Made by a program: the position numbers and the translations under genes | The notes under the pieces: generated by a model | Told to the model about the DNA's origin: nothing | Databases searched by the model: none | The model's input: only the letters and a program-made list of their open reading frames with translations | Assembly: GCA_000306725.1 (NCBI GenBank) | Contig: CP003083.1 | Coordinates: forward strand, 1,488,001 to 1,552,000 | Direction of reading: 5' to 3' | DNA length: 64,000 nt | From: Methanolobus psychrophilus R15 | GTDB lineage: Archaea > Halobacteriota > Methanosarcinia > Methanosarcinales > Methanosarcinaceae | In this document: positions 17,409 to 33,186 of the stretch, one piece after another | How positions within the stretch are numbered: position 1 is the first letter of the stretch | How the letters are laid out: each line of letters opens with the position of its first letter

Positions 17409-17555
17409 CTTGGGATATGATACGCATTACCCGTTTTTAAGATTGCCTGTTAAGGCATTGTTGCTGTCAACAAAATGAAACACAGTCGCTCAAAGGCAAC
17501 CTACATATACTACACATATAATTATAATAATTGGCACTATAATATTAGAGGAGCC

Positions 17556-18023
17556 ATGGACACCAAAGGACAGATGACTATCGACTATCTGATAAGCATT
17601 ACAATATTTTTGCTTGCAATGGTCTTTGTATTCAATTATACATCAGGATTATTCACGCCTTTCCAGTCTAACTCTGATGAAGTCACATTGATAGCGGACA
17701 GGGTATCTATAAGTGTAGTTGAAAAGAGGATGAGCGCCGGGGACGAGGATGTCCCTAATCTCATCAATGATCAGAAGATGGCGGCTTTCTTTGATGAGCT
17801 AGATATAGAATATTCTTCAACCATAGATTCCCTGGGTATGAACGGCAGCTATCTTCGATATGACCTGAATGTTACTGCAGAGAACAGCAGTGGTATCATT
17901 TCTGCTGCCGGAAAACAAATCCCGCAGCAAGTGAACGTAGGACAAACAAGAAGAATTGTCCTGTGCATAGATAAGAATTCAGGGAGCACAGAAATGATAA
18001 TTCTGTCATTCAGGGTGTGGTAA
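17556..18023 (+). CDS. Pilin-like protein A1 (operon A; Q-leader, DUF7287-like)
   Basis: This 155-residue protein begins MDTKGQMTIDYL and has one hydrophobic segment at about 8-30 (ISITIFLLAMVFVF). KG|Q followed by an acidic residue a few positions later resembles the archaeal class III signal peptide cut by prepilin peptidase (the Q-x-S-x-E-type motif). The remainder is a small extracellular domain with Asn-x-Ser/Thr sequons (NGS, NVT, NSS) and the end ILSFRVW. The start ATG 17556 is set by AGAGGAG just upstream; an in-frame ATG at 17475 would add a non-pilin leader. TATA-like sequence lies at 17515-17545. It is the first gene of operon A and the counterpart of B1. Function unknown. Confidence 0.8.
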   Translation: MDTKGQMTIDYLISITIFLLAMVFVFNYTSGLFTPFQSNSDEVTLIADRVSISVVEKRMSAGDEDVPNLINDQKMAAFFDELDIEYSSTIDSLGMNGSYLRYDLNVTAENSSGIISAAGKQIPQQVNVGQTRRIVLCIDKNSGSTEMIILSFRVW

Positions 18024-18024
18024 C

Positions 18025-18639
18025 ATGAGAGAGCTCATTATATTCAAATCTGAAAAGGGCACACATGCCCAGATGCACACCCTTGAGGCAATAATGGCTT
18101 CAATTATCATGTTCGCTATTATTGTATTCACCGTACAGGCAACCTCTCTGACCCCTCTCACTTCCTCTACAGCCAATGCTCACATAGAAGCCCAGCTCCA
18201 GACCATGGGCCAAGACATACTCAATGCTCTTTCTTATTCATCTTACGGACAGGATTCAGATCTGAAGATAGATATCCTGAACTGGGACGGTGAGCAGTAT
18301 GTCTGGAACGGAGTAGTATACAGGACAGTTAAAACGCCACAGCACGAGCTTCAATCCAGTTCACTTGCGCAGACACTCGAATTCATCGCAGTCAGAAGAG
18401 GAATTGCCCACAATGTGCATTTCAGCTGGATAAATGAAGATGGGGTCGCTGTTTCCCGGAGATACATCTACAACGGGGACCCCTCAAACAACGCTGTAGT
18501 CATATCAAAGAGAGTTCACTTATCCGATACCGATGTCGGCAATGCAGCTGATTTCATGGCACGCACTGGAATCCCGGATGCTGATCCTACTGGTTTCTAC
18601 AATATTGTGAATGTAAAGATGACTCTATGGAGAATGTAG
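18025..18639 (+). CDS. Pilin-like protein A2 (operon A; DUF7288-like)
   Basis: This 204-residue protein has an A15-Q16 cleavage-like site (HAQMHTLEAIMA) directly before a hydrophobic helix (SIIMFAIIVFTVQA), then an exported domain. It shares with B2 the AQ(M/L)HTLE start, an NG-x-P-x-x-NAVV motif in the C-terminal half and a C-terminal W-R (MTLWRM here, LTAWRV in B2). It starts 1 nt after the A1 stop, and its own stop TAG is followed in frame by TGA. The HTLE motif resembles pilin-like families of haloarchaea. Function unknown; probably a minor pilin. Confidence 0.8.
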   Translation: MRELIIFKSEKGTHAQMHTLEAIMASIIMFAIIVFTVQATSLTPLTSSTANAHIEAQLQTMGQDILNALSYSSYGQDSDLKIDILNWDGEQYVWNGVVYRTVKTPQHELQSSSLAQTLEFIAVRRGIAHNVHFSWINEDGVAVSRRYIYNGDPSNNAVVISKRVHLSDTDVGNAADFMARTGIPDADPTGFYNIVNVKMTLWRM

Positions 18640-18646
18640 TGATCGT

Positions 18647-19501
18647 ATGAAAAGATTAGGTGATTCCGCTCAGTTACTGTTGATTGCAGGTTTTGCCATA
18701 GGCGTAGGCATCGTTATAATTACAGTCATGCTGAACAACGTGATATATGCCAGCAACATGGCATCGGAATCAAGTATCGATACTTCCCGCTATGATATTG
18801 CCAACGCCATCCAGACCACCACTGAAGCATATCAGGATGCTTACAGGTATTCCATGAATAATGGCACAAACGGCGATTATGACAATTATATCGACTCATA
18901 TTCAAAAAAAGCTTCACAGAACTATGCAACCGCAGGTTTTACTTTCCACCTTCAGAACCATAATTTCTCAGACCCCTACTTCACTAACAACGGACTTGCA
19001 GGAGGAAAAGACAACTGGACCCTTGTGAGTAATGTAAATTCTACGGAAGTATTTCTTATAGACATTCCAAACACGTCCATTATGGGAAATGAGTCTAATC
19101 CACTTGTAATTGAAGCTGTCAAAAGTGGTATGAGTCTATGGTCAATTGAGATGTACAATTCAAGCGGGAAGGTAAATATCACTATTACAGACGGTTCTCT
19201 AACATCCAATACCAAAAGCATAATTGATACAGTGGTCAATCTTAATATAACAGGCAATAAGATTAATGCAGAAATGGTCTCATTCAATTTTTCTGCTTCC
19301 ACATCAGGCCATGACTATTCAATAAATATCTACAACGGAAGCACTACTGTTGGCATTTACACAATATCAGGGAACCTCACATCCGGACAGCCATTTACAC
19401 TTATAAGACATAAGGTGGCAAATCCAACCCTAAGGATGGCTTCCAGCCGAATGAGTATAAACCGGACAATACCTGTTTCCCTTCCCGGAGGGGGCTTATG
19501 A
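18647..19501 (+). CDS. Pilin-like protein A3 (operon A; DUF7261-like)
   Basis: This 284-residue protein begins MKRLGDSAQLLLIAGFAIGV, with A8|Q9 before the hydrophobic helix as in the other Q-leader members. The exported part is Asn/Ser/Thr-rich with many sequons (NNGTNG, NISG-like, NITITDG, NLNITGN), suggesting heavy N-glycosylation. It corresponds by position and N-terminus to B3, but is much longer (284 versus 153 residues). It follows A2 by 7 nt and overlaps the A4 start by 4 nt. Function unknown. Confidence 0.78.
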   Translation: MKRLGDSAQLLLIAGFAIGVGIVIITVMLNNVIYASNMASESSIDTSRYDIANAIQTTTEAYQDAYRYSMNNGTNGDYDNYIDSYSKKASQNYATAGFTFHLQNHNFSDPYFTNNGLAGGKDNWTLVSNVNSTEVFLIDIPNTSIMGNESNPLVIEAVKSGMSLWSIEMYNSSGKVNITITDGSLTSNTKSIIDTVVNLNITGNKINAEMVSFNFSASTSGHDYSINIYNGSTTVGIYTISGNLTSGQPFTLIRHKVANPTLRMASSRMSINRTIPVSLPGGGL

Positions 19502-19971
19502 GAGAACTGGCAGGCGATGAGAAGGCAGTATCTGTTCCGATAGGATTCATACTCACTTTCACTATCTCAGTCCTTGTGATGGTGGTTGTCCTTACATCAT
19601 TTTATTCATTGATAGGACAGGCAGAGCAAACCGTCATGCGTGATGAATTCGAAATACATGGAAGCGATATTGCAGCCCGCATAACAGCCATCGATACTAC
19701 TGTTGGTATAGCAAGGGAGGCAGGTGCCAGTATTGAAGGGATAGGTTACAGGCTATCCCTGCCGGACAGGATAGCAGGGAAGGAATATTCGGTCGAGTTC
19801 TCAAATCTTACAGATGATATAATCATCATGTCTGAAGGAAGGTATGAAACCAGAGTCATGGTACCCTATTCCACGGAAGATACCAATGTAACGCCAACCA
19901 TTCTTTACAGCTCAAAAGGTGAATACCTGATAGATTATAACTCACTGACAAATACGATCGATATATCCTGA
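19498..19971 (+). CDS. Pilin-like protein A4 (operon A; DUF7266-like)
   Basis: This 157-residue protein starts MRELAGDEKAVSVPIGFIL, where KA|VSV before a hydrophobic helix matches the archaeal pilin pattern. After the helix come GQAEQTVMRDEFEIHG and a domain ending YNSLTNTIDIS. B4 is the counterpart, sharing the VSV-x-x-(G/E) start and the -x-DEF/-DQF stretch before a short helix. The ATG overlaps the A3 stop as ATGA, with GGAGGGGG just upstream as a strong ribosome binding site. Function unknown. Confidence 0.78.
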   Translation: MRELAGDEKAVSVPIGFILTFTISVLVMVVVLTSFYSLIGQAEQTVMRDEFEIHGSDIAARITAIDTTVGIAREAGASIEGIGYRLSLPDRIAGKEYSVEFSNLTDDIIIMSEGRYETRVMVPYSTEDTNVTPTILYSSKGEYLIDYNSLTNTIDIS

Positions 19972-19977
19972 GAGTGA

Positions 19978-20772
19978 ATGTGCATGGACAGCAGAAAAAA
20001 GGCAAGAAAAAAGATAAGTGCATCTGAAGATGCTGTTTCAGAAGTACTGGGTTTCAGTATCACCATAGGAGTGTTGGTCTTGTCGCTTGCTGTAATAGGA
20101 ATCTCAGGTTATCCCATGATAGAACAAATGCAGGAAAGGGGGCATCTCCTGAACATTGAACAAAGCTTTTCAGTGTTGCAGCCTAATATTAACAAAGTGG
20201 CATACGGGAAAGCTCCTTCCCAATCCGTGGAACTTAAGATGTACGGAAGCATGATATCAGTTACAGGGACCAGTTACATGAATTTGAGCCTTCAGGTATG
20301 GAATAGCACCAGTTCCAGCTATAATACCCAGTCTATTGAAAAACAGATGAGGACTATAGAGAATGAATATGGGGAGAATGCCGTAGCCTATGAGAACACA
20401 GGTGCATGGGCCAGATATCCACATGGCAGCTCCGTAACAGTCTCAAAACCGGATTTTGCGTATCATGATAACGTATTACTTATTCCCATGGTGACTATTT
20501 CAGGATCAAAGAGCATTTCAGGTGCGGGGCTGACACGTGTGGTTTCCCAGGGAGGGCAAATATCAGTATCAGTATATGAGAACGTATCCATGGTCAACAT
20601 GACTGTTAAAAGCAACTACTACGAAGCCTGGGGAAGATATTTTAGTGAAACTCTGGACATGGATATCAATGCTATTGATGCTGCAAACAATACAGTATAT
20701 GTAAGCCGTGCGTATTCTCCCGGCATAGATGTGTTTGTCACAGTAACCCCAATGACTGTAACTATCGAATAA
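19978..20772 (+). CDS. Pilin-like protein A5 (operon A; DUF7289-like)
   Basis: This 264-residue protein has a lysine-rich leader and the processing region DAVSEVLGFSITIGVL, close to the AVSE(V/T)LG start of many archaeal pilins. After the helix is EQSFSVLQPNINKVAYGKAPS, shared with A6 and B5 (EQ-(A/S)-F-x-V-L/F, then P-S/V). The C-terminal half has a second family mark, YYEAWGRYF (A-W-x-x-Y). The start could be ATG 19978 or, with better ribosome-site spacing, ATG 19984. It is 6 nt after A4 and 8 nt before A6. Function unknown; a larger minor pilin is likely. Confidence 0.78.
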   Translation: MCMDSRKKARKKISASEDAVSEVLGFSITIGVLVLSLAVIGISGYPMIEQMQERGHLLNIEQSFSVLQPNINKVAYGKAPSQSVELKMYGSMISVTGTSYMNLSLQVWNSTSSSYNTQSIEKQMRTIENEYGENAVAYENTGAWARYPHGSSVTVSKPDFAYHDNVLLIPMVTISGSKSISGAGLTRVVSQGGQISVSVYENVSMVNMTVKSNYYEAWGRYFSETLDMDINAIDAANNTVYVSRAYSPGIDVFVTVTPMTVTIE

Positions 20773-20780
20773 GAGGTGTT

Positions 20781-22250
20781 ATGTTGATCAGAAATATGTC
20801 CAGGTCCGAAATAGCCGTATCATCCGTTGTTGGAATAATAATACTCCTTGCACTGACTATTGTATCTATAAGTGTTATCCTTCTATACTCAACTCCCTCA
20901 ATGAATAGCATGCAGGATATGGCCAATTCCCAAAGGGTTGAGCAGGCATTTACAGTGTTTGACTCCAGAGTTAGCAAGGTGGCACTGGGAGAATCACCGA
21001 GCCAGACAACTTCATTCTCCATTATGGACGGTAGTGTTAGCGTCAACGGGGATGATAGATCTTATCAAAACAGCCAGATAGTAGTGGTATGCACCCAGCT
21101 CAATAGTAGTCCATGGTATACTAATTTCAATAACAACAGATATAAATGGAACAGCTGGGCAGCTTATGAGAGTTATCCAAACATGACGGTGTTCAATGCA
21201 TCCATGGGAAGTATCACCTACAACCAAGCAGATCGGGTCATAGGATATGAAGGTGGGGGCGTATGGTCAAAATACCCAACCGGCAAGGCAGTCATGATAT
21301 CCCCTCCGGAGTTCCATTATAATGGAGAAACGCTTACATTGCCCATAATGAAAATTGATGGAAATGAGGTATTCAGCGGGAGGACAGATGTTGCGGTGAC
21401 TGTGAGTTCTAATAACATGCCTGTAGTGTTGTATCCTGAGAATGCGATCAATACAAAAAAAGTGAATCCTTTAGCTTCAGACAAAGTTCTCATCTATATA
21501 AAAAGTGAGTTTTACACAGCGTGGGCTGAATATGCAAACTCTTTAACTTACGCCAGTGCACAGACCGATGAACTGAACCAGACTGCCATTGTAGAACTTG
21601 AAGTGATGCCGGAAATGGGAAAGGATCAGCTCAAGCAAGTATTCAAGATTGGTGCCCTTAACCAGTCAAATCCTGCACCGATGTATAATTTTTTGTTTAA
21701 CTTGGAGGCAAAGTCAAGTCAGGGACTAAATCCAAGCAATTATCAGATAACAGCTTCATCTGGCACGAAGACCCTTACATACACCCTTGCAAAAAAAGGA
21801 GGTGCCAACCAGCTTCAACTGGGACTAATTTATAAAGATACAGCTATTGGAGGGGGCACCGAAACATGGGAAGGGACAGATGTGTTCTTTGTAAACGGTT
21901 CAAAGGAGGACCAAGCTTCCAGCGTAGACTTGCTGAGTAACTCTTTTGATATGAAGTATACTGCAAATTCACCAGATTTCTCCTGGGGTCCTGTCAGTCT
22001 CATAAGCATACCACCTGATATGGATATCACAAAAACTCAAAACAGCACACAGTCATTGTATGATGTTTCTCAGCATTATATGAAACTTCTCACAATGGAT
22101 GGTTCAGTCATGTTCAATATACAGTCACCTGGAAAATCAGATCCTGTGGACTATTCAGAGTCAACGCTGACACTGCTATATGACGGGATGCCGGGAAGTA
22201 TCACTTACCTTCATGTGAGCAGGAACGACCTTGCAATTACACTGAGTTAA
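20781..22250 (+). CDS. Pilin-like protein A6 (operon A; enlarged A5 paralogue)
   Basis: This 489-residue protein is the last and largest of operon A. It starts MLIRNMSRSEIAVSSVVGII, with an AVSS pilin-like site before the helix, then EQAFTVFDSRVSKVALGESP, clearly homologous to A5 and B5. The A-W-x-x-Y mark is FYTAWAEYA at about 250. Residues about 270-489 form an additional domain with no counterpart in A5 or B5. AGAGGTGTT just before the ATG is the ribosome binding site. By analogy with large tip pilins it could cap the fibre, but this is inference. Operon B lacks an equivalent. Confidence 0.77.
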   Translation: MLIRNMSRSEIAVSSVVGIIILLALTIVSISVILLYSTPSMNSMQDMANSQRVEQAFTVFDSRVSKVALGESPSQTTSFSIMDGSVSVNGDDRSYQNSQIVVVCTQLNSSPWYTNFNNNRYKWNSWAAYESYPNMTVFNASMGSITYNQADRVIGYEGGGVWSKYPTGKAVMISPPEFHYNGETLTLPIMKIDGNEVFSGRTDVAVTVSSNNMPVVLYPENAINTKKVNPLASDKVLIYIKSEFYTAWAEYANSLTYASAQTDELNQTAIVELEVMPEMGKDQLKQVFKIGALNQSNPAPMYNFLFNLEAKSSQGLNPSNYQITASSGTKTLTYTLAKKGGANQLQLGLIYKDTAIGGGTETWEGTDVFFVNGSKEDQASSVDLLSNSFDMKYTANSPDFSWGPVSLISIPPDMDITKTQNSTQSLYDVSQHYMKLLTMDGSVMFNIQSPGKSDPVDYSESTLTLLYDGMPGSITYLHVSRNDLAITLS

Positions 22251-22331
22251 GCTTTGGATAGGAAAATTCATAGAAGAATTATATAAAAGCGCATCCAAAA
22301 GTAAGTATATTATAAGGTAGTGTGATGAAGT

Positions 22332-22445
22332 ATGCTCTGGAAAGGCAATAGCGCCGTATCAGATACTACAAAAGTTATATTCACCCTTTTTCTTTATCTG
22401 TTATTAATCATAGCCATCGTATTAGCTATAAGTTTTTACCGTTGA
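22332..22445 (+). CDS. 37-residue membrane peptide between the two pilin-like operons
   Basis: This short gene encodes MLWKGNSAVSDTTKVIF followed by a single hydrophobic helix (TLFLYLLLIIAIVLAISF) and a terminal Tyr-Arg. The NSAVSDT segment before the helix copies the AVSE/AVSS pilin cleavage region of A5, A6 and B5, but the protein ends right after the helix with no exported domain. It has its own TATA box (TTATATAAAAG at 22279-22289), about 50 nt before the ATG, and a ribosome-site-like AAGGTAGTGTGATGAAG. It may be a real micro-pilin or helper, or the remnant of a longer pilin. Function unknown. Confidence 0.55.
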   Translation: MLWKGNSAVSDTTKVIFTLFLYLLLIIAIVLAISFYR

Positions 22446-22614
22446 AGTTTGGTTCATGACACAGACGTGTTGCATATTTCTGTGTGCCCTAAAGGGGTTA
22501 AGACTGGGTTAAAAAAGTAAGAAACATGAAATGGGCAGGTTTTACTTTAGAGATTTTAATCAGATACATTAAAAGCAAATAATATTTATATGACATTGTA
22601 CATATATTATCTGC

Positions 22615-23592
22615 ATGATAGATGAAAAAGGGCAAATTGCCGTGGACTTCCTTCTTGGGATTTCGTTGTTCCTAATTGCTCTTATGTTCATAGTACAATT
22701 CATTCCAGGTCTTTTCCTGCCCGGTTCGGCAAACGAGGGAAGCCTTGATCATACTGCCTACAGGACAGCCACGGTCCTTGCTGAAGATCCCGGATGGTGG
22801 GGGAACACCACTACAAGCAATACGGATTGGGAACACAATCCTGCTGACGTCAAAAGAATTGGTCTTGCGGCTGACGATGACAGCAGTTCAAAACTGACAA
22901 ATAGCCCAAACCTCATCTCAAAGAATAAAACACTCGCAATGATGCAGATAGATGAAAAAGTTTTCGTGGAGAAACTGGGCTTGTATGATAACGTAAATGA
23001 AGCCCTTTTTTATTACGGCTACAACATATCTATCACAAAGAATATCACAGATAGTGCATCCCTGGTCCTGGAAAATGTGCCTCTGGCTCGTGGAAGCATG
23101 ATCCCTGCAGACAGAGATGTGATTAAAATAGTGCGCATCGTCCTGATAGAAACAGGAAAAGTCGCTTACTTTGATGCAGATGAATTTATTACACCCTATC
23201 CTACCCCATCTAACATGACTTCATTGAGCGTCGCCGGACCTAAGAACGAAGATGTCACAGTAATCATAAGCAAATTTAACATAACAGGAACCAATCCTAA
23301 ACTTGAGAGCATAGAGCTGAATGGAACCACACTCGCTCCTTCTTCTGATTTCAATGCATACAAAAGGATTAACGGCATATATTCACCCATAAACTTAAGT
23401 GAGTCACTAGAGTGCAATGACATGCTGCGTTTGGATCTCAATTCCAGTCTTTTTAGCGCAAACCAGACTTACCTGTTAGAACTGACATTCAATGATATCT
23501 GGTTCACAATGTCAGGAGCACCACTGGAGTATACATCAAGAGAGGAGGCTTTCTATGAGCCTGCTTACCTCAATGTGATGGTGTGGAAATGA
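22615..23592 (+). CDS. Pilin-like protein B1 (operon B; counterpart of A1)
   Basis: This 325-residue protein starts MIDEKGQIAVDFLLGISLFL, the same KG|Q plus acidic residue plus helix as A1. The exported domain has DPGWWGN, RIGLA and many sequons, and ends NVMVWK, echoing the A1 and A2 tails. It is about twice the length of A1. A TATA-like AATATTTATATG at 22581-22592 lies so close to the ATG that the transcript is probably nearly leaderless. It opens operon B and overlaps B2 by 4 nt. Function unknown. Confidence 0.8.
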   Translation: MIDEKGQIAVDFLLGISLFLIALMFIVQFIPGLFLPGSANEGSLDHTAYRTATVLAEDPGWWGNTTTSNTDWEHNPADVKRIGLAADDDSSSKLTNSPNLISKNKTLAMMQIDEKVFVEKLGLYDNVNEALFYYGYNISITKNITDSASLVLENVPLARGSMIPADRDVIKIVRIVLIETGKVAYFDADEFITPYPTPSNMTSLSVAGPKNEDVTVIISKFNITGTNPKLESIELNGTTLAPSSDFNAYKRINGIYSPINLSESLECNDMLRLDLNSSLFSANQTYLLELTFNDIWFTMSGAPLEYTSREEAFYEPAYLNVMVWK

Positions 23593-24107
23593 ACGATAAA
23601 GCACAACTGCATACTCTGGAAGGTCTTGCTGCTGCACTGCTGATGACATTGACGATACTGACCATTACCCAGAGTGCCATGATAATAACACCACAGAACG
23701 AACTGGTGATGGACGTCCAGCTAAAACAAATTGCATCCGATGCATTGACAGTACTGGACAGCGCACCGGAGGCAACGATCAGGAACGATCTGACTGAATG
23801 CATTGCGAGCTGGAACATGACTGAAGCAAGCCTGACTGTAAACAATCTTGGGATGCTTGATAATGAGCTATCATACCTTCTTCCAGATATACTCTACAAT
23901 GTCAACATAGCATATTTTGATGTGGGCACACAAAAATTGACAGACAAGAAGGTTATCGTTAACGGCGCGCCCACAGAAAATGCTGTTGTAGCCAGGCGTT
24001 TAGTGTCACTCTCCAATTCTACGGTTTCCAGTTCTGGCGGAGCATGGGGCATTGCAGATGATGAGTTGTTGATCGTGGAGGTGAGACTAACAGCATGGAG
24101 AGTTTAA
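23589..24107 (+). CDS. Pilin-like protein B2 (operon B; counterpart of A2)
   Basis: This 172-residue protein begins MNDKAQLHTLEGLAAALL, with A5|Q6 before the helix, matching A2 (AQMHTLEA). The C-terminal half has NGAPTENAVVARR, matching NGDPSNNAVV in A2, and it ends LTAWRV. The ATG overlaps the B1 stop as ATGA; an in-frame GTG at 23583 is the alternative start. It overlaps B3 by 13 nt. Function unknown; probably a minor pilin. Confidence 0.79.
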   Translation: MNDKAQLHTLEGLAAALLMTLTILTITQSAMIITPQNELVMDVQLKQIASDALTVLDSAPEATIRNDLTECIASWNMTEASLTVNNLGMLDNELSYLLPDILYNVNIAYFDVGTQKLTDKKVIVNGAPTENAVVARRLVSLSNSTVSSSGGAWGIADDELLIVEVRLTAWRV

Positions 24108-24556
24108 GAAAGGATAACAAAGGTCAGTGGATAGTACTTTCCGGATTGGTCATATCCCTCATCCTGGTGGCGATAGCAGTGCTTGCTAACCAGGCAGTCA
24201 TCAATGGTTATTACTCATCGAATGCAGTGCTGGAATTGCCAAAAGAGGACATAAGGGAGCTGACATTGCAAACCAGGGAGAATACAAGGATGATCCTGGA
24301 TATGTCTTATGAACTCAACCAGACAAACAACAAAACCGTGCCGGTAATATTTGAGGATATTTTCATCAACTGCAATGATCAAATGAAGGCACTTTACGCT
24401 ATACGCGGACAGGCAATCGATACCAGAATGATGCAGATGCAGATTACTAATGAAACAAACATGTCCGGGAAAGATATCATCTGGGTGAATATCGAATATA
24501 ATGACGGCAGAACCAGATATGTTTCAAGTCCGGAAGTCATAGAGGTGGAGAAATGA
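24095..24556 (+). CDS. Pilin-like protein B3 (operon B; counterpart of A3)
   Basis: This 153-residue protein starts MESLRKDNKGQWIVLSGLVI, with KG|Q before the hydrophobic helix. The exported region has an ELTLQTRENTRMIL helix and sequons (NQT, NKT, NET, NMS), and is shorter than A3. A strong GGAGGTGAG lies about 10 nt before the ATG, inside the end of B2. The stop overlaps the B4 start as ATGA. Function unknown. Confidence 0.77.
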   Translation: MESLRKDNKGQWIVLSGLVISLILVAIAVLANQAVINGYYSSNAVLELPKEDIRELTLQTRENTRMILDMSYELNQTNNKTVPVIFEDIFINCNDQMKALYAIRGQAIDTRMMQMQITNETNMSGKDIIWVNIEYNDGRTRYVSSPEVIEVEK

Positions 24557-25008
24557 GACCGCTATTGAAAAATGAAGAAGGGGTTTCAGTCATCGTAGAA
24601 TATATCCTGCTGACGCTGATATGTATCGGATTCTTCATGGTGATCACTGTTAATTCCTATGATATATTCCTTCAGCGCCCAAATTCTGTCGTTGTCGAAG
24701 ACCAGTTCAGTGACATCGGAAACATGATGAGCACTGTGATTACAGACATGTACCTGATCCTTCCTGCCAACGGAATGATGGAAATGGAATACAGGATACC
24801 GGATAAAGCAGGACAGGAGACGTATTATATTAATGCGGATATCAATTTGGATGATGGTCCGGAAGACCAGATAATAGAAGTGGGTTCCTATTCATCCGGT
24901 CAGAAAGTAAGAGTGACTATAGGAGGGATTGCTGCAACAATGCCTATCAACGGCACGGTATCAAGCAGCTCCACACATCGTGTGATCAGCTATGACTCAA
25001 CTACATAG
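24553..25008 (+). CDS. Pilin-like protein B4 (operon B; counterpart of A4)
   Basis: This 151-residue protein starts MRPLLKNEEGVSVIVEYILL, with EG|VSV and a Glu inside the helix start, a classical type IV pilin feature. After the helix is VVEDQFSDIGNMMSTVI, equivalent to the RDEFEIHGSDI stretch of A4. GAGGTGGAGAA precedes the ATG. It overlaps B5 by 17 nt. Function unknown. Confidence 0.78.
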   Translation: MRPLLKNEEGVSVIVEYILLTLICIGFFMVITVNSYDIFLQRPNSVVVEDQFSDIGNMMSTVITDMYLILPANGMMEMEYRIPDKAGQETYYINADINLDDGPEDQIIEVGSYSSGQKVRVTIGGIAATMPINGTVSSSSTHRVISYDSTT

Positions 25009-25735
25009 GAATAATGCCGCAGTCTCTGAGACTCTGGGATACATTATATTGTTCGGGATTGTGACTTTGTCGATGGGTACCATATATGCTATTGGTTATC
25101 CGGTGCTACAGTCAAATATCGATGCAAATGTGTTTGAAAGTGCAGAGCAGAGCTTTATTGTACTCCAGAGCAACATGAAAAGGGTGTCCTTCGACCAGGC
25201 ACCTGTGAAGACCCTAAAGATGAAACTTCACGGTTCCGAGATTTCAGTGAACGACCATTCATCTAATATAAGTATTAGTTATGACGGTACTCACCTCGGA
25301 ACTTACCCCATGGGGGATATACAGTTCTCAAAAGGTAAAAAATCCATAAGCTATGAAATGGGAAGTGTGATTAAGAGATATTCCCCCACATCCATGATCA
25401 TGGTGTCAAAGCCTCCCATATACACCAGTACCATGGATAATCAGAGTGTGACAACTATCGGCATAGTCTCGATCAACGGAAATGCGTGGCTTTCAGGCAG
25501 GGGAATCACAACCGTTACAATGAGTCACAATTCCAGTAGAATGGAGATGCTGCCATCGGGACCTACAGACGTAACAGTCCAAATAGACAGCGCACATGCC
25601 CCTGCGTGGAAAATGTACCTAGAAGATGCCGGCTTTTATATCTCCCCCAGCAGCCCATCTTCGACTGTCATAGCCACTAAGAATGATACAAGACTGATAG
25701 TAAGTCATCATACAGTTGACGTCGATATGAAATAA
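24992..25735 (+). CDS. Pilin-like protein B5 (operon B; counterpart of A5/A6)
   Basis: This 247-residue protein starts MTQLHRNNAAVSETLGYIIL, with an AVSETLG pilin site. It then has AEQSFIVLQSNMKRVSFDQAP, aligned with A5 and A6, a P-(P/D)-F/I region near KPPIYTS, and HAPAWKMYLEDAG as its A-W-x-x-Y mark. It is the last gene of operon B and is followed by the bidirectional terminator at 25778-25799. Function unknown; probably a minor pilin. Confidence 0.79.
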   Translation: MTQLHRNNAAVSETLGYIILFGIVTLSMGTIYAIGYPVLQSNIDANVFESAEQSFIVLQSNMKRVSFDQAPVKTLKMKLHGSEISVNDHSSNISISYDGTHLGTYPMGDIQFSKGKKSISYEMGSVIKRYSPTSMIMVSKPPIYTSTMDNQSVTTIGIVSINGNAWLSGRGITTVTMSHNSSRMEMLPSGPTDVTVQIDSAHAPAWKMYLEDAGFYISPSSPSSTVIATKNDTRLIVSHHTVDVDMK

Positions 25736-25803: not shown

Positions 25804-26694
25804 TTATTCCTTCCTGCGCTGCATTATGAATGCAAGACCGAGGATCGCTGCTATTGGCAAAGCGATGGTCGGGAACTCAGGGATCTCCTGTCCGGGCAGG
25901 AAGTAAATTCCTGCATCTATGTCCTCATAGTACTGTCCTGAGATAAGTGCAAAGCAATCTGTTTTCCCGAATTCGTCTGCATCACTGTCAGTTGCTGTGC
26001 TGCCCTGCCCTTGCGGAGCGAAAACTGATCCGGTAGGCTTCAAAAATTCTATGTAGTAGCTGCCTGGTGCAAGTCCTGTGAATATATAGTATCCACTGTT
26101 ATCTGTTGTTGTGTTTGCAACAAGTTCCCCATCACACTTGTAGAGCTTGACTTCAACTCCTTCAATGGCGGGTTCACCAGCATCCTGGATACCATTGTTA
26201 TTCTGGTCTTCCCAGACAAAGTTACCAACACTTGCTGGTTTGTACATGCCTGCGTCAATGGTGCAGTTATCGTTATAATTCCTGATCTTGATTACTGAAG
26301 TCATGCCAGTTGCTGTGTTGGCATCACTGTCTTTATTGTCATTTGTGCCCTGATCCATAGGTGAGAATACATATCCTGAAGGCAGAATGAACTTGACCTT
26401 ATAATTTTTATTGTTATTTACGGCAAATTTGTAGATGCCGTTGGAGTTAGTCGTTGTTTCTCTTATCTTTACAAAATTGCCATTGGCGTTCTTAGAATAG
26501 AGCTCTACCTTTACACCCTTAATTCCCGGCTCTCCAGAATCCTGTATACCGTTCCCATTGAGGTCGTCCCACACAAGGTCACCTATGTGACATGCTGATG
26601 CCGGAAGTGTCAGTGCCACAAATACCACTATGGCAAGGGCCAGCACTCTGACAGGCACGTGCCTGAACACATCACTTATGATTCTTTTTACCAT
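25804..26694 (-). CDS. SdrD-B repeat surface protein with PEF-CTERM sorting signal
   Basis: This 296-residue protein has a signal peptide ending near PASA, then two SdrD-B (collagen-binding B-type, Ca-binding) domains. Each opens with (I/V)G(D/N)(L/F)VW(D/E)D-x-N-x-NGIQD-x-GEP and closes with a DAG(M/I)Y motif. The C-terminus has PEFPTIALPIA, a hydrophobic helix and QRRKE. This is the PEF-CTERM signal, which archaeosortase (ArtC type) processes to anchor proteins to lipid. ATG 26694 follows a GGTGGT ribosome site and is preferred to ATG 26721. It faces the pilin-like operons tail to tail. Structural or adhesive role inferred. Confidence 0.88.
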   Translation of the reverse strand: MVKRIISDVFRHVPVRVLALAIVVFVALTLPASACHIGDLVWDDLNGNGIQDSGEPGIKGVKVELYSKNANGNFVKIRETTTNSNGIYKFAVNNNKNYKVKFILPSGYVFSPMDQGTNDNKDSDANTATGMTSVIKIRNYNDNCTIDAGMYKPASVGNFVWEDQNNNGIQDAGEPAIEGVEVKLYKCDGELVANTTTDNSGYYIFTGLAPGSYYIEFLKPTGSVFAPQGQGSTATDSDADEFGKTDCFALISGQYYEDIDAGIYFLPGQEIPEFPTIALPIAAILGLAFIMQRRKE

Positions 26695-26970
26695 AATTGT
26701 ACCACCATTTCTTACGTACATAATGTTTGTACTTTATGTAGAGTTGTTTTGTGAGGATATAAACTTTGCTAATTAATGTAGTAAGTTGTCATGATAATAA
26801 TGATGAGAGAACAACTTAATAGTGCCCGCAGAAACAACAGAATGAGAATAGAAGATTGTCGAAAAGGTACAGAAGAACATGTGCGAAAAAGAGCAATAAG
26901 GGAACATGGATTTACAAAGACCCTGCCCCACTTATGCATAAAAAAGAAATGGACTTTCAATGAAGGGATA

Positions 26971-29900
26971 TTAACTGATAGTTATCATCCCCTTCGGCCT
27001 TACTAATATCAGCTCGCTCTCGTTTAACATATCACTTACATTGTTCGTGTTATACGCATAGGCACTTATGTAGGCATTTCCTGCAATCTGGCTCGTAAAG
27101 TTGACAGTGTCTGAACCAATGACAGTGGCATTTATGAGAGTCACACCGTCCGAAGTGTTATAGTTGGTGAAGGATCCAAGGCTTGTGTGAAGCACCACAT
27201 AGGCAAAACTGGCATTCCCGGTAATATCATTTACTGTTAAGGTTATATTTGTGGATTCGCCTATGAGCAGCACGGAATGGTCAGGTACTACTGACAATTC
27301 TCCCAGAGAATATGACAAGGGGCTTAAACCACCTCCTCCTCCGACGGGCATGCCTCCTGCGCTGGGAATGTAGATGGTGATGTTCTCACCACTCAGATCA
27401 GTATACGTAATCGTGGATGATGGCAGTATCAGAGGCACATAACCTGCGCCTTCCACTTTCATCTGATACCATATACCCCACTTGTCACCAGGACCCAGTG
27501 TCGGCAGCTTCCACTCAAAAATGGACATGGTACCGGATGTTGTGATTGCAGGCTCTGCATTGTTCCTTCCGGGAGGTACAGGGATATCGAACTGGGTCAG
27601 ATTGCCGGTCGTTGCATTGCTGCTTCCCGAAATATATGTGACCTTTGCCACAGCCATTGGAGATACATAATTGTAAGGAACATGCAGGTTGAGTTCCGGA
27701 CCACCCGCGGAGAAGTTCGTAATCTGCATTGCTATTCCCTTGAAGATTTCCTTAAGGACACTTGAGTTCGGAGCAAAATAGTATTCACCACCGGTGATAC
27801 TTGCAATTTCGGCAAGTATGGGGTCAACCTCAGACTCGGTGTTACCGAAACCTACGGTGTAGATCGTGGTGTTGTTGGCTTTTGCCCTATATGCTTCCTC
27901 CAGCAGGGAGTGATAACCTGCATTATCTATACCGTCTGTCATGATGACAATCGTGGAATTGGCATCCACTGAGGAGAGTTCATTATTGGCAACGTACAAT
28001 CCCTCATCTATAGCTGTCAGTCCGTCGGCTGTAATTGTATCTATCACATTGCTCAGATGGGAAATGGAGTCATTTTCAAGGGTTGATGTCACGCTGGCAG
28101 TCCACCCGCTCCAGGAGACAGGAGTACTTTCAACAGATGCTTCCGGTGTAGAAAATACAATATCGAAACATTCAGAGCTCCACGTTGAATATGGCTCAAC
28201 CTGAGAAAGCGAAGTAAACGAAGAACCGTCCCATTTCTGTATGTTCAGGTCAGTGTTTCCATCAGATGTCATGAGGAACATCTCATTTGAAGCCGGATCA
28301 GGAGTAAGCTGTGCCCACCTAGTATATCCACTGCTTCCAAGGTCCAGTGCTGATGACTCGCTGCTCCATGAACCGGACCATGTCCGGTATTTAGGAACGG
28401 TACTGCGATCTCCCCAGACCACCAGCCCCTTGCCTGACTGTTGCTCGAATGCTACATCAAATGATCTGACATCAGCGCGATAAGTATAATCCTCAATCCA
28501 ATCAATATTATTCCATGATCCAGACAATGATAAACCATCCCAGACACTCACACCAATCCAATAAGCATGATCTTGTAAACCCATAAGTATTGTATCAGAA
28601 TTAGGATCTGCTGCCAACTTTACCCAATAGACAGCATCAGGTGAGCTGTAGATGGTTTGCTCATTTTTCCATGAGCTGCCATTCCATATGCGATATTTCC
28701 CAATACTTTGAGTACCACCACTTGGCCCGATATCTGCCCAGACTACCATTGCATTCCCAGATTCCTGTTCATAAACAACATCAAAACATTGGTAACTATA
28801 GGCTCTTGCATTATTTGTAATAATTTCAGGATTTCCCCATGATTCGCCGTCCCATACCTGTGCGCGTATATTCCGGTTACTATCATGAGTTACAAGTACC
28901 ATTTCATCTGAATTTGGGTTTGCTTCAAGCCGTATCCACCCTACTTCACCGGAGCCTGTGTAGGTGCTATTCGTATATTCCGGAGAACTCCATGAAGATC
29001 CATCCCACACCTGATAGCGAGGCACACGGGAATGCTGTTTCACATCCATATAGACAACTACAGCATCACCAGACAACTGCTCATATTTTACATCAAAGCC
29101 TCTTCTTGTGCTCTGACTCAGTTCAGTACTGAGCTCCCTCACCAAACCCCAGGAGTTACCGTCCCATATCTGGGCATTTACATCTTTCAGATCATCACCT
29201 GTAACCATTATTATCTCAGGCCTAACAGGGCTTGATTCCAGCAATACGAAATATGGAATCCGATCAATATTTTGAGCAGATTTTTCCATAGACCATCGCG
29301 ATTCTTCACTGAACCATGTCCTGTACTTGGGAGTGCTCTTTCCGCTGTCCTCACTGCCATCGTAATAAGCGGTCATGACGGTGTCCACAGGTGAACTTGA
29401 AACTGTTACCGTGAAGAGGGTATCTGTGCCTGAATGCGATCCCTTGGCAATATTGAGAAGATACGTATTTCCAGAATACAGGAGTGAGCTTACCTGACAA
29501 AGGCCTGTGGAGCTGGCTGATGAGTTCAAATAATCTATGCCATCATAAAGTGAGACTATCATTCCAGAAGCATCAGCCCATGAAAGATCAAAAGCATACA
29601 GACCAGTAGAATGAGGAGTAAAATAACCGGTCCAGCTACCATTATCAAGCAAATAACTTGTCTGGCTGTCGGAGAGTGAAGTGCCTTCAATACTATAAAG
29701 AGCCAGGCCTGCTTTGTCACCGCGGGATTCATCAAAACTCGAAATGAATGCATGGGATGATAACTTGGCTGCACTCAATTTATCAATATAAGTTGATACA
29801 GCAAAGTTTTCACTTGCACTGCCCTGATTAATAACTTTCAGCGTCCATTCCCCTATTTCAACATAATCATCCTCCGGATGAATATACGAAAGAGGGCTGA

Positions 29901-32900
29901 GCCAGATATACTCAGAGGTGTCCCTTGTCAGAGAATAAGTTATTGTGACCAGAGGCATTCGTCCGTTAAGATGATTCTTGTGATTATTAGGGTTCGTTTC
30001 CGAAGATAAGAACAAATCAGACCTTCCGGAGTTATAACCGGAACCTATTAGCACAATATCACATGATTCGCCCCATTCGGGAATCCTATCATTACCCCAT
30101 TTTGCATTGGTTATGTCGAAATCGATAACTTTATTCCTAACTGTTGACGTCAGATATTTGGATTCGATAGTATATGACGTGTCAAAATCTGCAGTACTGA
30201 AGTCGCCTGATACCCAAGTGCTGCCAGAAGTATTATACATCCACGAAGGAGTGTCATAATCTGTCAAAACATCATACGCCCTTATGTATCGACCACTGCT
30301 GCCTGGGTCCTGTGCATAAGAGGTTGTAGGCCCGGACAAATACATTTTTACGCCCTCAATTTGTGCATTGTGGGTTGGAGCATCCGGCAACTTCCACCGA
30401 AAGATAATGGATGCCTGGCCCCTATCCGTAACATAAAGATTTGTGTCCGCTGATTTATCTGCTGCCGGTTCTACAGAAGTGACATAAGTGTCAAACAGAG
30501 GTAAGCGCACATCTATTGGCACCTCTTCCCTGCTATCAAAATAATAACCTGTAGTGTCATTATTTTTACCATATATCTTTCCGGAAGGGCTTATCAGCTG
30601 GACATCCAGATCCGAAGAACTGCTTATCCAGTCCAACTTCACTTTCAAGTCGCTGATAGTTTCATTTATCTCAAAAGTGGTTTCAAATGAGTTTCCGGCA
30701 CCCAGCATACCATTGAAGGAGTAGTCGTAAGGTGTGAAGCCTTCTACCCCGTATTCTGCAGAATCCAGATCATAATCGCTTATTTCCTGTGCAATGGAGT
30801 TATACACTTTGCTTAATTCAGAACTCGTAGGCGCGTTATAGTAAAGTCCCCCAGTCTCAAAAGCTATACTCTGTAGAAGAGGCTCATCGAGATATTCAGC
30901 AGTTCCCATACCTATTGTATAGACGATGATTCCATTTGCCTTTGCAACTGCAATGGCTGAATTAACCTTATTTGGATCATCACAGACACCGTCCGTAAGT
31001 ACTATCATTACTTTTTTTGACTCCGGGCGCCCATTCATAAGCATGCCGTTTGCATCTGTCATACCTTCACCCATGTAAGTAGCCCCATTTGCTGACAGAA
31101 CATCTATGGCACTAATTACTAAAGTTTTATTATCAGATGAGTCCAGAGGGGTGAGTTGTTTATCTATGCTGGTAGATGAGGAAAATGAAACTACACCTGC
31201 CTGTGCATTAGATATCAGATTGCCTACAAAGTTTTTAGCAGCTGTTTTTGCGTCTGTCATTGGTTGTTCAGGGGAAGTGCCCAAGAATTTCATACTCCCC
31301 GACCTGTCAATAACAAGCACGACATCCAGAGGAGTTCCCGCATAGTAGTCAGGAGCCATACTTCCTGAGCGGTCAAGGACCAGCATTGCACTTGCTGCGG
31401 GTCGTATGATTGGGAGTTCTCCTTCTATTGAGATGATCGTTGTTACGTTCACAGTACCACCGGATGTTACATTGGATGGTTCCACATCCAGTATCACACT
31501 CATGAAAGGCTCGGACTTCACGCTTATATTTGTTGAGGCGTTGATGCTGCCACTGGTAGCCAGGATTGTCGCATTTCCGGAAACATTGCCTAAGAAGGAG
31601 GCTTTTACCTTTCCACTGGCATCTGTTGCCACATTAATAATATTCGTAGCGTTGATACCATCGACTGTCAGGGTACCGACTGTCGTATTGGTATTGTTGA
31701 GAGTCACAGAAATGCCAGGGATTGCATGGCCCCATTCGTCCAGTGCGACAAGGGAAACAGTAGCTTCATGATTACCATTTAATCCCTGTGCAAGTACGGC
31801 ATTTGGAACCGAATACAAGTCCAACAGATATAAAGGGCCAGCTGCAAAATAAAGAGTGGTGCTGTTTGTGAAATTAGTATAACCAGAAGCATCCCTGTAG
31901 GTCGCTGTTACTGCGAGGGACTCAACATAAGGAGTAGGACCAACTATAGTATTTGCCTGCCCCTGGTTATTTAAAGGTATCAGCACAAGATTACCATTAG
32001 CTGTTGTGAACCTGACCAGTTCTTTAATAGGAGTCGTGCGGGGCAATATTGGATTTAAGAACTGATCTACCGGCCGGGCTGAGAGGACATAGGAATCCTT
32101 GTTATTGGAAAGAGCAAGTCCAGGATTATGTGAGAGATACAAATTATCGATCTCATCTGCAAGACCTGTTATAGTTATGTTGCCCTGAAGTGAAGTATTC
32201 GCAACAACTATGTTAATGATGTTTGCACCTGCTCTTTTATCGGTCCTGAAAATATTGGCAAATTGCCCGCTGGGATCCGTGGTCCCATTATAATACGCAA
32301 GTCCCGCAGAGTTATATTCCACAGGACTGTTGTAGGCAGTGTTTTCAGGAGATGTCAAACTGAAATTGAGATTGACATCCGGTGTAGGATTGTCATAGAT
32401 ATCATAAAGACGCACATACATGCTGGAGGTCGTGTTCACTGTATATTCATCGTTGTATACAGCTCCGATCCGTGAGGGTTCCCCGGGAATGACCACCAAT
32501 TCCGTAAAGTTGGAGGCTGATCCGGTTGTCGATGTGATGTTAATATTGCCTGCAATGGTAGAGTTCAAGCTCAGAACAGCATTTCCGGTTACAGGATTGG
32601 CAAGTATCTCCAGGGCGGTCCAGTTTACGCCTGCTGCGCCTTCGGGGATGAGTTCAAGATGTGTTATGTTGCCAGGACTTATTGAAAGTGTTACATTTTC
32701 CGAATGTTCGCTTATGACAATATCCAGATATATCAGCTCACTTGAATTGATATTGCCAAAAATATCCACAGGGGTAAAAGTAATATTTGTGATATTGCCT
32801 GCAACATTTACGGGATAATCGACATCTACCAGAATCGAACTGGCAGCCAGAGGAAGGAAAGTAATATTTGTTAGATTGTACGAAGTACCTGAGCTTGCAT

Positions 32901-33186
32901 TGACCTGTGCCGTTCCAGAAACACTGGAATTTATCTGTATTTCCGCAATGCCGTATGTGTCGGTGTACGCAGAAGATGAATTGAGTATACCAAATGTAGT
33001 TGTGAAGTTTACGAGAGTGTTATTCACAGGAGTTGAATTATTTGTTACTCTCACAATGACATCCACGGGTTCACCGGAGTTACTCTGCATGTCCGTAGTA
33101 AGCATCTCAACATCCAAAGCTAAAGCGGATAGACTGATGGCAAGAAAGATGATAGAGGCATAGATAAACTTATTGGGGCACTTCAT
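26971..33186 (-). CDS. Giant exported protein with Ig-like, VWA, DNRLRE-type and WDG-repeat regions
   Basis: This 2071-residue protein has a signal peptide (1-24). Invasin/Big1-like Ig repeats follow (about 25-580; SGEPVDVIVRVTNNSTPVNNT-type units). Two MIDAS motifs DRSGSM lie only 22 residues apart (605 and 627), the second inside a complete von Willebrand A domain (to about 800). A DNRLRE-like carbohydrate-binding type region spans about 900-1090. About six repeats with W-D-G-x-S-W spans follow (about 1270-1670). A VWA half-domain without its own MIDAS (from about 1690, VIMTDGIDNAG) precedes a last Ig-like stretch. It ends NESELILVRPKGMITIS with no membrane anchor or CTERM signal. Sequons are very frequent. 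A cell-surface adhesin or matrix protein is inferred. Confidence 0.85.
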   Translation of the reverse strand: MKCPNKFIYASIIFLAISLSALALDVEMLTTDMQSNSGEPVDVIVRVTNNSTPVNNTLVNFTTTFGILNSSSAYTDTYGIAEIQINSSVSGTAQVNASSGTSYNLTNITFLPLAASSILVDVDYPVNVAGNITNITFTPVDIFGNINSSELIYLDIVISEHSENVTLSISPGNITHLELIPEGAAGVNWTALEILANPVTGNAVLSLNSTIAGNINITSTTGSASNFTELVVIPGEPSRIGAVYNDEYTVNTTSSMYVRLYDIYDNPTPDVNLNFSLTSPENTAYNSPVEYNSAGLAYYNGTTDPSGQFANIFRTDKRAGANIINIVVANTSLQGNITITGLADEIDNLYLSHNPGLALSNNKDSYVLSARPVDQFLNPILPRTTPIKELVRFTTANGNLVLIPLNNQGQANTIVGPTPYVESLAVTATYRDASGYTNFTNSTTLYFAAGPLYLLDLYSVPNAVLAQGLNGNHEATVSLVALDEWGHAIPGISVTLNNTNTTVGTLTVDGINATNIINVATDASGKVKASFLGNVSGNATILATSGSINASTNISVKSEPFMSVILDVEPSNVTSGGTVNVTTIISIEGELPIIRPAASAMLVLDRSGSMAPDYYAGTPLDVVLVIDRSGSMKFLGTSPEQPMTDAKTAAKNFVGNLISNAQAGVVSFSSSTSIDKQLTPLDSSDNKTLVISAIDVLSANGATYMGEGMTDANGMLMNGRPESKKVMIVLTDGVCDDPNKVNSAIAVAKANGIIVYTIGMGTAEYLDEPLLQSIAFETGGLYYNAPTSSELSKVYNSIAQEISDYDLDSAEYGVEGFTPYDYSFNGMLGAGNSFETTFEINETISDLKVKLDWISSSSDLDVQLISPSGKIYGKNNDTTGYYFDSREEVPIDVRLPLFDTYVTSVEPAADKSADTNLYVTDRGQASIIFRWKLPDAPTHNAQIEGVKMYLSGPTTSYAQDPGSSGRYIRAYDVLTDYDTPSWMYNTSGSTWVSGDFSTADFDTSYTIESKYLTSTVRNKVIDFDITNAKWGNDRIPEWGESCDIVLIGSGYNSGRSDLFLSSETNPNNHKNHLNGRMPLVTITYSLTRDTSEYIWLSPLSYIHPEDDYVEIGEWTLKVINQGSASENFAVSTYIDKLSAAKLSSHAFISSFDESRGDKAGLALYSIEGTSLSDSQTSYLLDNGSWTGYFTPHSTGLYAFDLSWADASGMIVSLYDGIDYLNSSASSTGLCQVSSLLYSGNTYLLNIAKGSHSGTDTLFTVTVSSSPVDTVMTAYYDGSEDSGKSTPKYRTWFSEESRWSMEKSAQNIDRIPYFVLLESSPVRPEIIMVTGDDLKDVNAQIWDGNSWGLVRELSTELSQSTRRGFDVKYEQLSGDAVVVYMDVKQHSRVPRYQVWDGSSWSSPEYTNSTYTGSGEVGWIRLEANPNSDEMVLVTHDSNRNIRAQVWDGESWGNPEIITNNARAYSYQCFDVVYEQESGNAMVVWADIGPSGGTQSIGKYRIWNGSSWKNEQTIYSSPDAVYWVKLAADPNSDTILMGLQDHAYWIGVSVWDGLSLSGSWNNIDWIEDYTYRADVRSFDVAFEQQSGKGLVVWGDRSTVPKYRTWSGSWSSESSALDLGSSGYTRWAQLTPDPASNEMFLMTSDGNTDLNIQKWDGSSFTSLSQVEPYSTWSSECFDIVFSTPEASVESTPVSWSGWTASVTSTLENDSISHLSNVIDTITADGLTAIDEGLYVANNELSSVDANSTIVIMTDGIDNAGYHSLLEEAYRAKANNTTIYTVGFGNTESEVDPILAEIASITGGEYYFAPNSSVLKEIFKGIAMQITNFSAGGPELNLHVPYNYVSPMAVAKVTYISGSSNATTGNLTQFDIPVPPGRNNAEPAITTSGTMSIFEWKLPTLGPGDKWGIWYQMKVEGAGYVPLILPSSTITYTDLSGENITIYIPSAGGMPVGGGGGLSPLSYSLGELSVVPDHSVLLIGESTNITLTVNDITGNASFAYVVLHTSLGSFTNYNTSDGVTLINATVIGSDTVNFTSQIAGNAYISAYAYNTNNVSDMLNESELILVRPKGMITIS

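Follow-up and report, generated by a model that had tools for sequence, protein, structure and literature searches.

The two operons of prepilin-like proteins studied here lie at positions 17556-25735 of a 64,000-nucleotide window of Methanolobus psychrophilus R15 (the window is C1:1488001-1552000 of the single-contig 3.07 Mb genome, G000). They are best explained as a whole, with a probability that we put at roughly 0.55, as two anciently diverged minor-pilin cassettes, A and B, of a PilB4-type type IV pilus (T4P), which would provide one machine with alternative tips. This explanation is built on the homology and common order of the two sets, their prepilin sites, the absence of a local motor, the age of the A/B split, the way in which whole cassettes replace one another at fixed slots, and the linkage to VWA and propeller modules. 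The locus itself is a real, conserved pilin system that belongs to a known T4P type and is mostly uncharacterised; what is new in it are tandem cassettes of ancient origin that are exchanged as units, together with the adhesin modules and the ArlCDE-like protein linked to it.

A preliminary description of this DNA had reported eleven small exported-type proteins in two consecutive operons of the same gene order, and all eleven open reading frames (ORFs) were recovered at those coordinates, all on the + strand, in two closely packed operons of six (A) and five (B) genes. Genes are spaced by 1, 7, -4, 6 and 8 nt within operon A and overlap by 10, 13, 4 and 17 nt within operon B, and 364 bp separate the operons. 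The slots are S1 (DUF7287), S2 (DUF7288), S3 (DUF7261-like), S4 (DUF7266) and S5 (DUF7289), with an extra S5b (A6) in A (a slash in a leader stands between positions -1 and +1):

17556..18023 (+): A1, DUF7287 prepilin, 155 amino acids (aa), leader KG/QMTIDY (Pfam 2.9e-33)
18025..18639 (+): A2, DUF7288 prepilin, 204 aa, leader A/QMHTLE, motif NGDPSNNAVV (Pfam 1.3e-44)
18647..19501 (+): A3, probable DUF7261-like prepilin, 284 aa, leader A/QLLLIAG without acidic residue (Pfam 22.9 bits, sub-threshold; A3-B3 profile 1.3e-10)
19498..19971 (+): A4, DUF7266 prepilin, 157 aa, leader A/VSV (Pfam 2.9e-11)
19978..20772 (+): A5, DUF7289 prepilin, 264 aa, leader A/VSE (Pfam 1e-26)
20781..22250 (+): A6, second DUF7289 pilin with a DUF7308 domain, 489 aa (Pfam 2.1e-21 and 2e-20)
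22615..23592 (+): B1, DUF7287 prepilin in the long B-clade form, 325 aa (Pfam 4.3e-18)
23583..24107 (+): B2, DUF7288 prepilin, 174 aa (Pfam 2.7e-23)
24095..24556 (+): B3, probable slot-3 DUF7261-like prepilin, 153 aa (profile match to A3 1.3e-10; Pfam 14 bits)
24553..25008 (+): B4, slot-4 DUF7266-like prepilin, 151 aa (profile match to A4 9.9e-15; Pfam 0.0054, sub-threshold)
24992..25735 (+): B5, DUF7289 prepilin, 247 aa (Pfam 4.5e-33)

The A and B partners are homologous and colinear. Profile-profile comparison gave a clean diagonal (A1-B1 7.6e-22, A2-B2 2.8e-22, A3-B3 1.3e-10, A4-B4 9.9e-15, A5-B5 2.7e-38), and off-diagonal matches were much weaker, the exceptions being the A5-A6 and A6-B5 pairs, as expected, and a weak N-terminal likeness of A4 to A5 and A6; pairwise identity between partners was 26-35%. 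Eight proteins (A1, A2, A4, A5, A6, B1, B2, B5) scored above their Pfam cut-offs. B4 reached only 16.9 bits against DUF7266, under the cut-off of 27.6, yet it matches A4 clearly. Both slot-3 proteins fell under the DUF7261 cut-off of 27 (A3 22.9 bits, B3 14 bits), and their assignment as DUF7261-like follows from position and mutual profile match. NCBIfam searches of the locus proteins returned nothing informative, a literature search on DUF7287 found no paper, and one on pili of M. psychrophilus nothing useful.

The order S1-S2-S3-S4-S5(-S5b) was found nearly everywhere in maps of about 150 loci, and the haloarchaeal DUF7287/7288/7261/7266/7289 neighbourhood cited in the preliminary description proved correct in names and order. 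DUF7288 is present in 193 of 295 sampled Halobacteriota genomes, representing 83 of 107 genera. Methanocella, Methanoperedens and one haloarchaeon likewise carry sets in tandem or in pairs. Each slot has a prepilin peptidase-type site (G or A at -1, short charged leader) ahead of one hydrophobic helix. Over 113 cassettes, position -1 was G or A almost without exception in every slot; position +1 was Q in S1-S3, and S4 and S5 start with V-S. Asp occupied +5 in 110 of 113 S1 proteins and Glu +6 in 112 of 113 S2 proteins, with neither pattern in S3. The suggestion of an ancient multi-pilin set with particular leader motifs was thus borne out by homology, phylum-wide order and conserved prepilin-like sites. 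Peptidase_A24 had one match in the genome (C1:1380169), and this single detected prepilin peptidase would cut the S1-S5 prepilins. The AlphaFold model of A2 (predicted local distance difference test score, pLDDT, 82) combined an antiparallel sheet with long N-terminal helices, and the DUF7289 profile matched the archaeal pilin 8fj5 weakly over residues 1-35 (E = 0.063). At three loci (L054, L126, L127) a third type of cassette was seen, in which S3 and S4 each measure about 590 aa and the neighbours are MinD/FleN-like and KaiC-like genes.

The two operons had been taken for a set duplicated locally, with the lengths of A3 and B1 as signs of divergence between the copies; neither point held. 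When S1, S2, S4 and S5 were concatenated for a tree (built by a quick method and with midpoint rooting only), A and B formed separate clades, the A clade comprising Methanosarcinaceae, Methanoperedens and Methanocella and the B clade taking in Methanomicrobiales and other lineages. Since Methanomicrobiales fall inside the B clade, the A/B split predates the divergence of Methanosarcinales and Methanomicrobiales. A recent local duplication is ruled out by this tree together with the low pairwise identity, and the extra length of B1 and of A3 is a constant mark of the B and A clades, respectively. A second set of A type (A'), absent from the window genome, is the younger duplicate of local origin.

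Among the Methanolobus genomes, the nearest relatives of the window genome, the slot is bounded by mre11-rad50 and a molybdate-type ABC transporter and holds one to four sets: A+B, A+A', A+B+A', larger arrays (G008, G017) or B alone (G007). The Methanohalophilus slot, between an ArlCDE-like (FlaCDE) gene and a small membrane-protein gene (TM205), contains A (G138), B with the giant protein Big (G214, Big in two frames) or A, B and Big (G246). From these contents we conclude that the tandem A-B arrangement is common to the two genera and that sets are lost or exchanged as units.

The motor was expected to be encoded elsewhere, and no ATPase or TadC gene adjoins the cassettes in the window or at any mapped Methanolobus locus. 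The genome contains five VirB11/TadC-type loci, the archaellum being one of them. Linked pairs were found at other mapped loci: nine in Halobacteria have ATPase and TadC directly before S1 (L130, L201, L205-L208, L214, L233, L234), at one of which a pilin gene on the opposite strand intervenes, and two in Methanomicrobiales (L216, L217) have a convergent TadC-ATPase pair after the cassette. In a tree of 49 ATPase sequences, the ATPase at 413.5 kb (ATP_413) and its orthologues from eight cassette genomes fell in one clade (99/95) with the ATPases that are linked to cassettes in Halobacteria and at L216 and L217; Methanosarcina G036, which lacks cassettes, has no ATPase in this clade. All 45 relatives with an unambiguous DUF7288 had the accompanying TadC class, and none of the 13 lacking DUF7288 did (G056, with weak partial DUF7288 matches only, was left out); the genomes being kin, this amounts to a strong association and not to 58 independent events. 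Genomes with B only (G007, G039, G045) also have TadC of this class. By tree and profile, the C1:413-417 kb ATPase/TadC pair is the best candidate for the motor in the window genome.

Downstream of the B operon lies the following gene:

26971..33186 (-): Big, secreted Ig/VWA/beta-propeller protein, 2071 aa, candidate tip adhesin (VWA 1.1e-32, Big_1 2.8e-12, propeller model, synteny)

Big begins with a signal peptide, by inspection, followed by Ig-like (Big_1) and VWA domains and eight W-D-G repeats of roughly 52 residues each. The repeat region was modelled as a beta-propeller (pLDDT 87.6; predicted template modelling score 0.90), for which the nearest Foldseek matches were PLL/PHL-type and related lectins (1.7e-9), a second aligner giving a tie with WD40 propellers. 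By sequence, Big had no match in the PDB. B cassettes nearly always have a convergent Big after them, as in all mapped Methanolobus B sets whose downstream end is covered and in Methanohalophilus; A sets are usually without it. Related VWA/Ig proteins stand beside B-type genes in Methanocella. Comparable modules are also fused into the pilins themselves: VWA or PKD in S4 (L219, L221, L227), VWA in S3 (L218, L132) and, in an order-level relative family, an FG-GAP propeller insert of roughly 1300 residues in DUF7288 of S2 (L056:3920-8608, L057:5041-9855). This pattern fits pilins that bear adhesive modules at an exposed end. A supposed fusion of Big to the giant DUF7288 protein of family f3 was rejected, the insert being FG-GAP without a Big profile match. 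Two DRSGSM motifs lie close together in Big, near residues 605 and 627. The second VWA is without its own start, so that one VWA may be interrupted by another VWA plus the propeller. Big is in two frames in Methanococcoides G255 (L198:12373-18867) and Methanohalophilus G214 (L236:2613-7811), which suggests decay or sequencing error.

A gene for a protein with an Arch_fla_DE domain immediately precedes A1 in Methanococcoides, Methanohalobium, Methanosalsum and some Methanohalophilus. In its C-terminal domain this ArlCDE-like protein is 57-67% identical to a long Methanolobus paralogue, versus 42-53% to the archaellum copy. Of 31 related Methanosarcinaceae genomes with cassettes, 27 have the long form, and three of the four that lack it are drafts; none of the five cassette-free genomes has it. 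In the window genome the long copy lies apart from the cassettes (C1:2307456-2310233, L060:9456-12233), adjoining a member of the membrane-protein family that flanks cassettes, with a PilA-type pilin gene nearby; we interpret this setting as the cassette's former site.

The type of the system was assigned from its architecture. Like the PilB4-type euryarchaeal T4P (clade 2 in Figure 4B of Makarova, Koonin and Albers, 2016; PMC4858521), it has a VirB11 ATPase and TadC beside the multi-pilin set in haloarchaea, where the ATPases are long and have additional domains, and ATPase/TadC modules that evolve apart from the pilin sets; unlike that description, ancient A and B clades stand here in tandem, far from the motor, with a dedicated ArlCDE-like gene and VWA/propeller adhesins linked to them. 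The Kil (Tad) pilus of Myxococcus carries interchangeable minor-pilin Tips, TadE/F/G, on one pilus (PMC12075869), and likewise has several minor-pilin clusters, some with large C-terminal modules, for one machine; however, those Tips are bacterial and of three proteins, and the likeness to S1-S5 drawn here is one of organisation. Big, with its VWA and beta-propeller, similarly recalls the bacterial PilY1/minor-pilin tip complex and modular VWA pilins, where minor pilins are the adhesin mount, again in architecture; the modelled propeller of Big is nearest in fold to PLL/PHL-type lectins and not to PilY1. The cassette-linked protein shares its Arch_fla_DE domain with the euryarchaeal ArlCDE switch/scaffold but forms a separate class, mostly 700-1050 aa long, beside pilins and not archaellins.

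In the mechanism that we favour, S1-S5 would be assembled by the 413-417 kb ATPase/TadC pair. Less certainly, they would prime and cap a pilus whose shaft might be a stand-alone PilA-type pilin, for example that at C1:2312 kb, and A and B would give the same machine alternative tips. The B tip would carry or dock the secreted Big as adhesin. For Methanosarcinaceae we infer that the dedicated cytoplasmic ArlCDE-like protein would couple the motor to a regulator. Several observations weigh against this picture. The structure search with the A2 model found no significant match to a solved pilin in the PDB. Big lies outside the B operon and is missing beside B at two loci (L050, L197), and one genome (G033) keeps A without a pilin-linked ArlCDE-like protein. 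The TadC association reflects few independent events: both states occur within families f1 and f2, and the negatives of f4 are incomplete genomes. At L219 and L232, B-type cassettes stand next to ATPases from a different clade, on long and weakly placed branches, so that some lineages may use a separate motor for B. Finally, Makarova et al. (2016; PMC4858521) proposed a dedicated major pilin within the PilB4 set, in which case the set would be more than a tip.

The last two points also favour two separate heteropolymeric fibres, in which each cassette would assemble a filament of its own and one of its five pilins (DUF7289, for instance) would form the shaft, and so do the complete five slots of both sets and the constant length differences between the clades. 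The preliminary description had proposed two fibres with different tips. The different tips are retained in our explanation; two fibres are possible but in our judgement unlikely, because one motor class goes with cassettes of either type and cassettes are exchanged at fixed slots, even at a single slot within Methanohalophilus, and both facts point rather to alternative tips on one fibre. One copy per slot and the bulky VWA, PKD and propeller inserts also better suit rare tip subunits, and separate PilA-type pilin genes exist. A pseudopilus-like secretion device, a short piston exporting or displaying Big and similar giant surface proteins without a long pilus, would account for the linkage of B with Big and for a conserved five-pilin make-up that recalls GspG-K; yet Big, having its own signal peptide, needs no piston for export, and A sets are mostly without Big, so that we hold this to be quite improbable. 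Least plausible of all are archaellum accessory proteins, with the cassettes decorating or modifying the archaellum and therefore adjoining an ArlCDE-like gene. Archaellins are indeed found in most carriers, but Methanohalophilus G214 has no detectable archaellin and still keeps a cassette next to its sole ArlCDE-like gene, the pilin-linked ArlCDE class is distinct from that of the archaellum, and Methanosarcina G036 has archaellum-type ATPases and no cassette. An own-genome search for the archaellin domain (PF01917) gave no match at the locus.

Returning to a single pilus with alternative tips, a more speculative extension, which we consider doubtful, is an exchangeable-tip T4P with its own ArlCDE-type switch ring, in which extension, retraction or even rotation would be under taxis-like signalling and tips would be chosen from a genomic array. 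ArlCDE ties the archaellum motor to chemotaxis via CheF (PMC8978795), and Makarova et al. (PMC4858521) saw no evidence for chemotaxis control of archaeal T4P besides the archaellum; the cassette-linked protein makes such control of non-archaellar pili directly testable. The analysis likewise offers a testable role for each DUF slot and names a likely motor for a system whose DUF7288 occurs in roughly two of every three Halobacteriota genomes sampled. If the tip model is true, the cassettes would be an archaeal counterpart of Tad tip complexes, which is of note given that Tad is thought to have an archaeal origin (PMC6668835).

Three minor features, two of them putative and proposed from reading the letters, accompany the operons:

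17511..17530 (+): putative TATA-like AT-rich stretch 5' of operon A
22332..22442 (+): one-helix ORF between the operons, 37 aa (tblastn, 34/37 identical, L034/L064 only)
22581..22592 (+): putative TATA-like stretch 5' of operon B

By tblastn, the 37-aa ORF showed no conservation past the nearest species. Between B5 and Big, a surface protein with an SdrD_B domain is encoded at 25804-26721 (-); apart from this genome, only the nearest species (L034) has it at that place.

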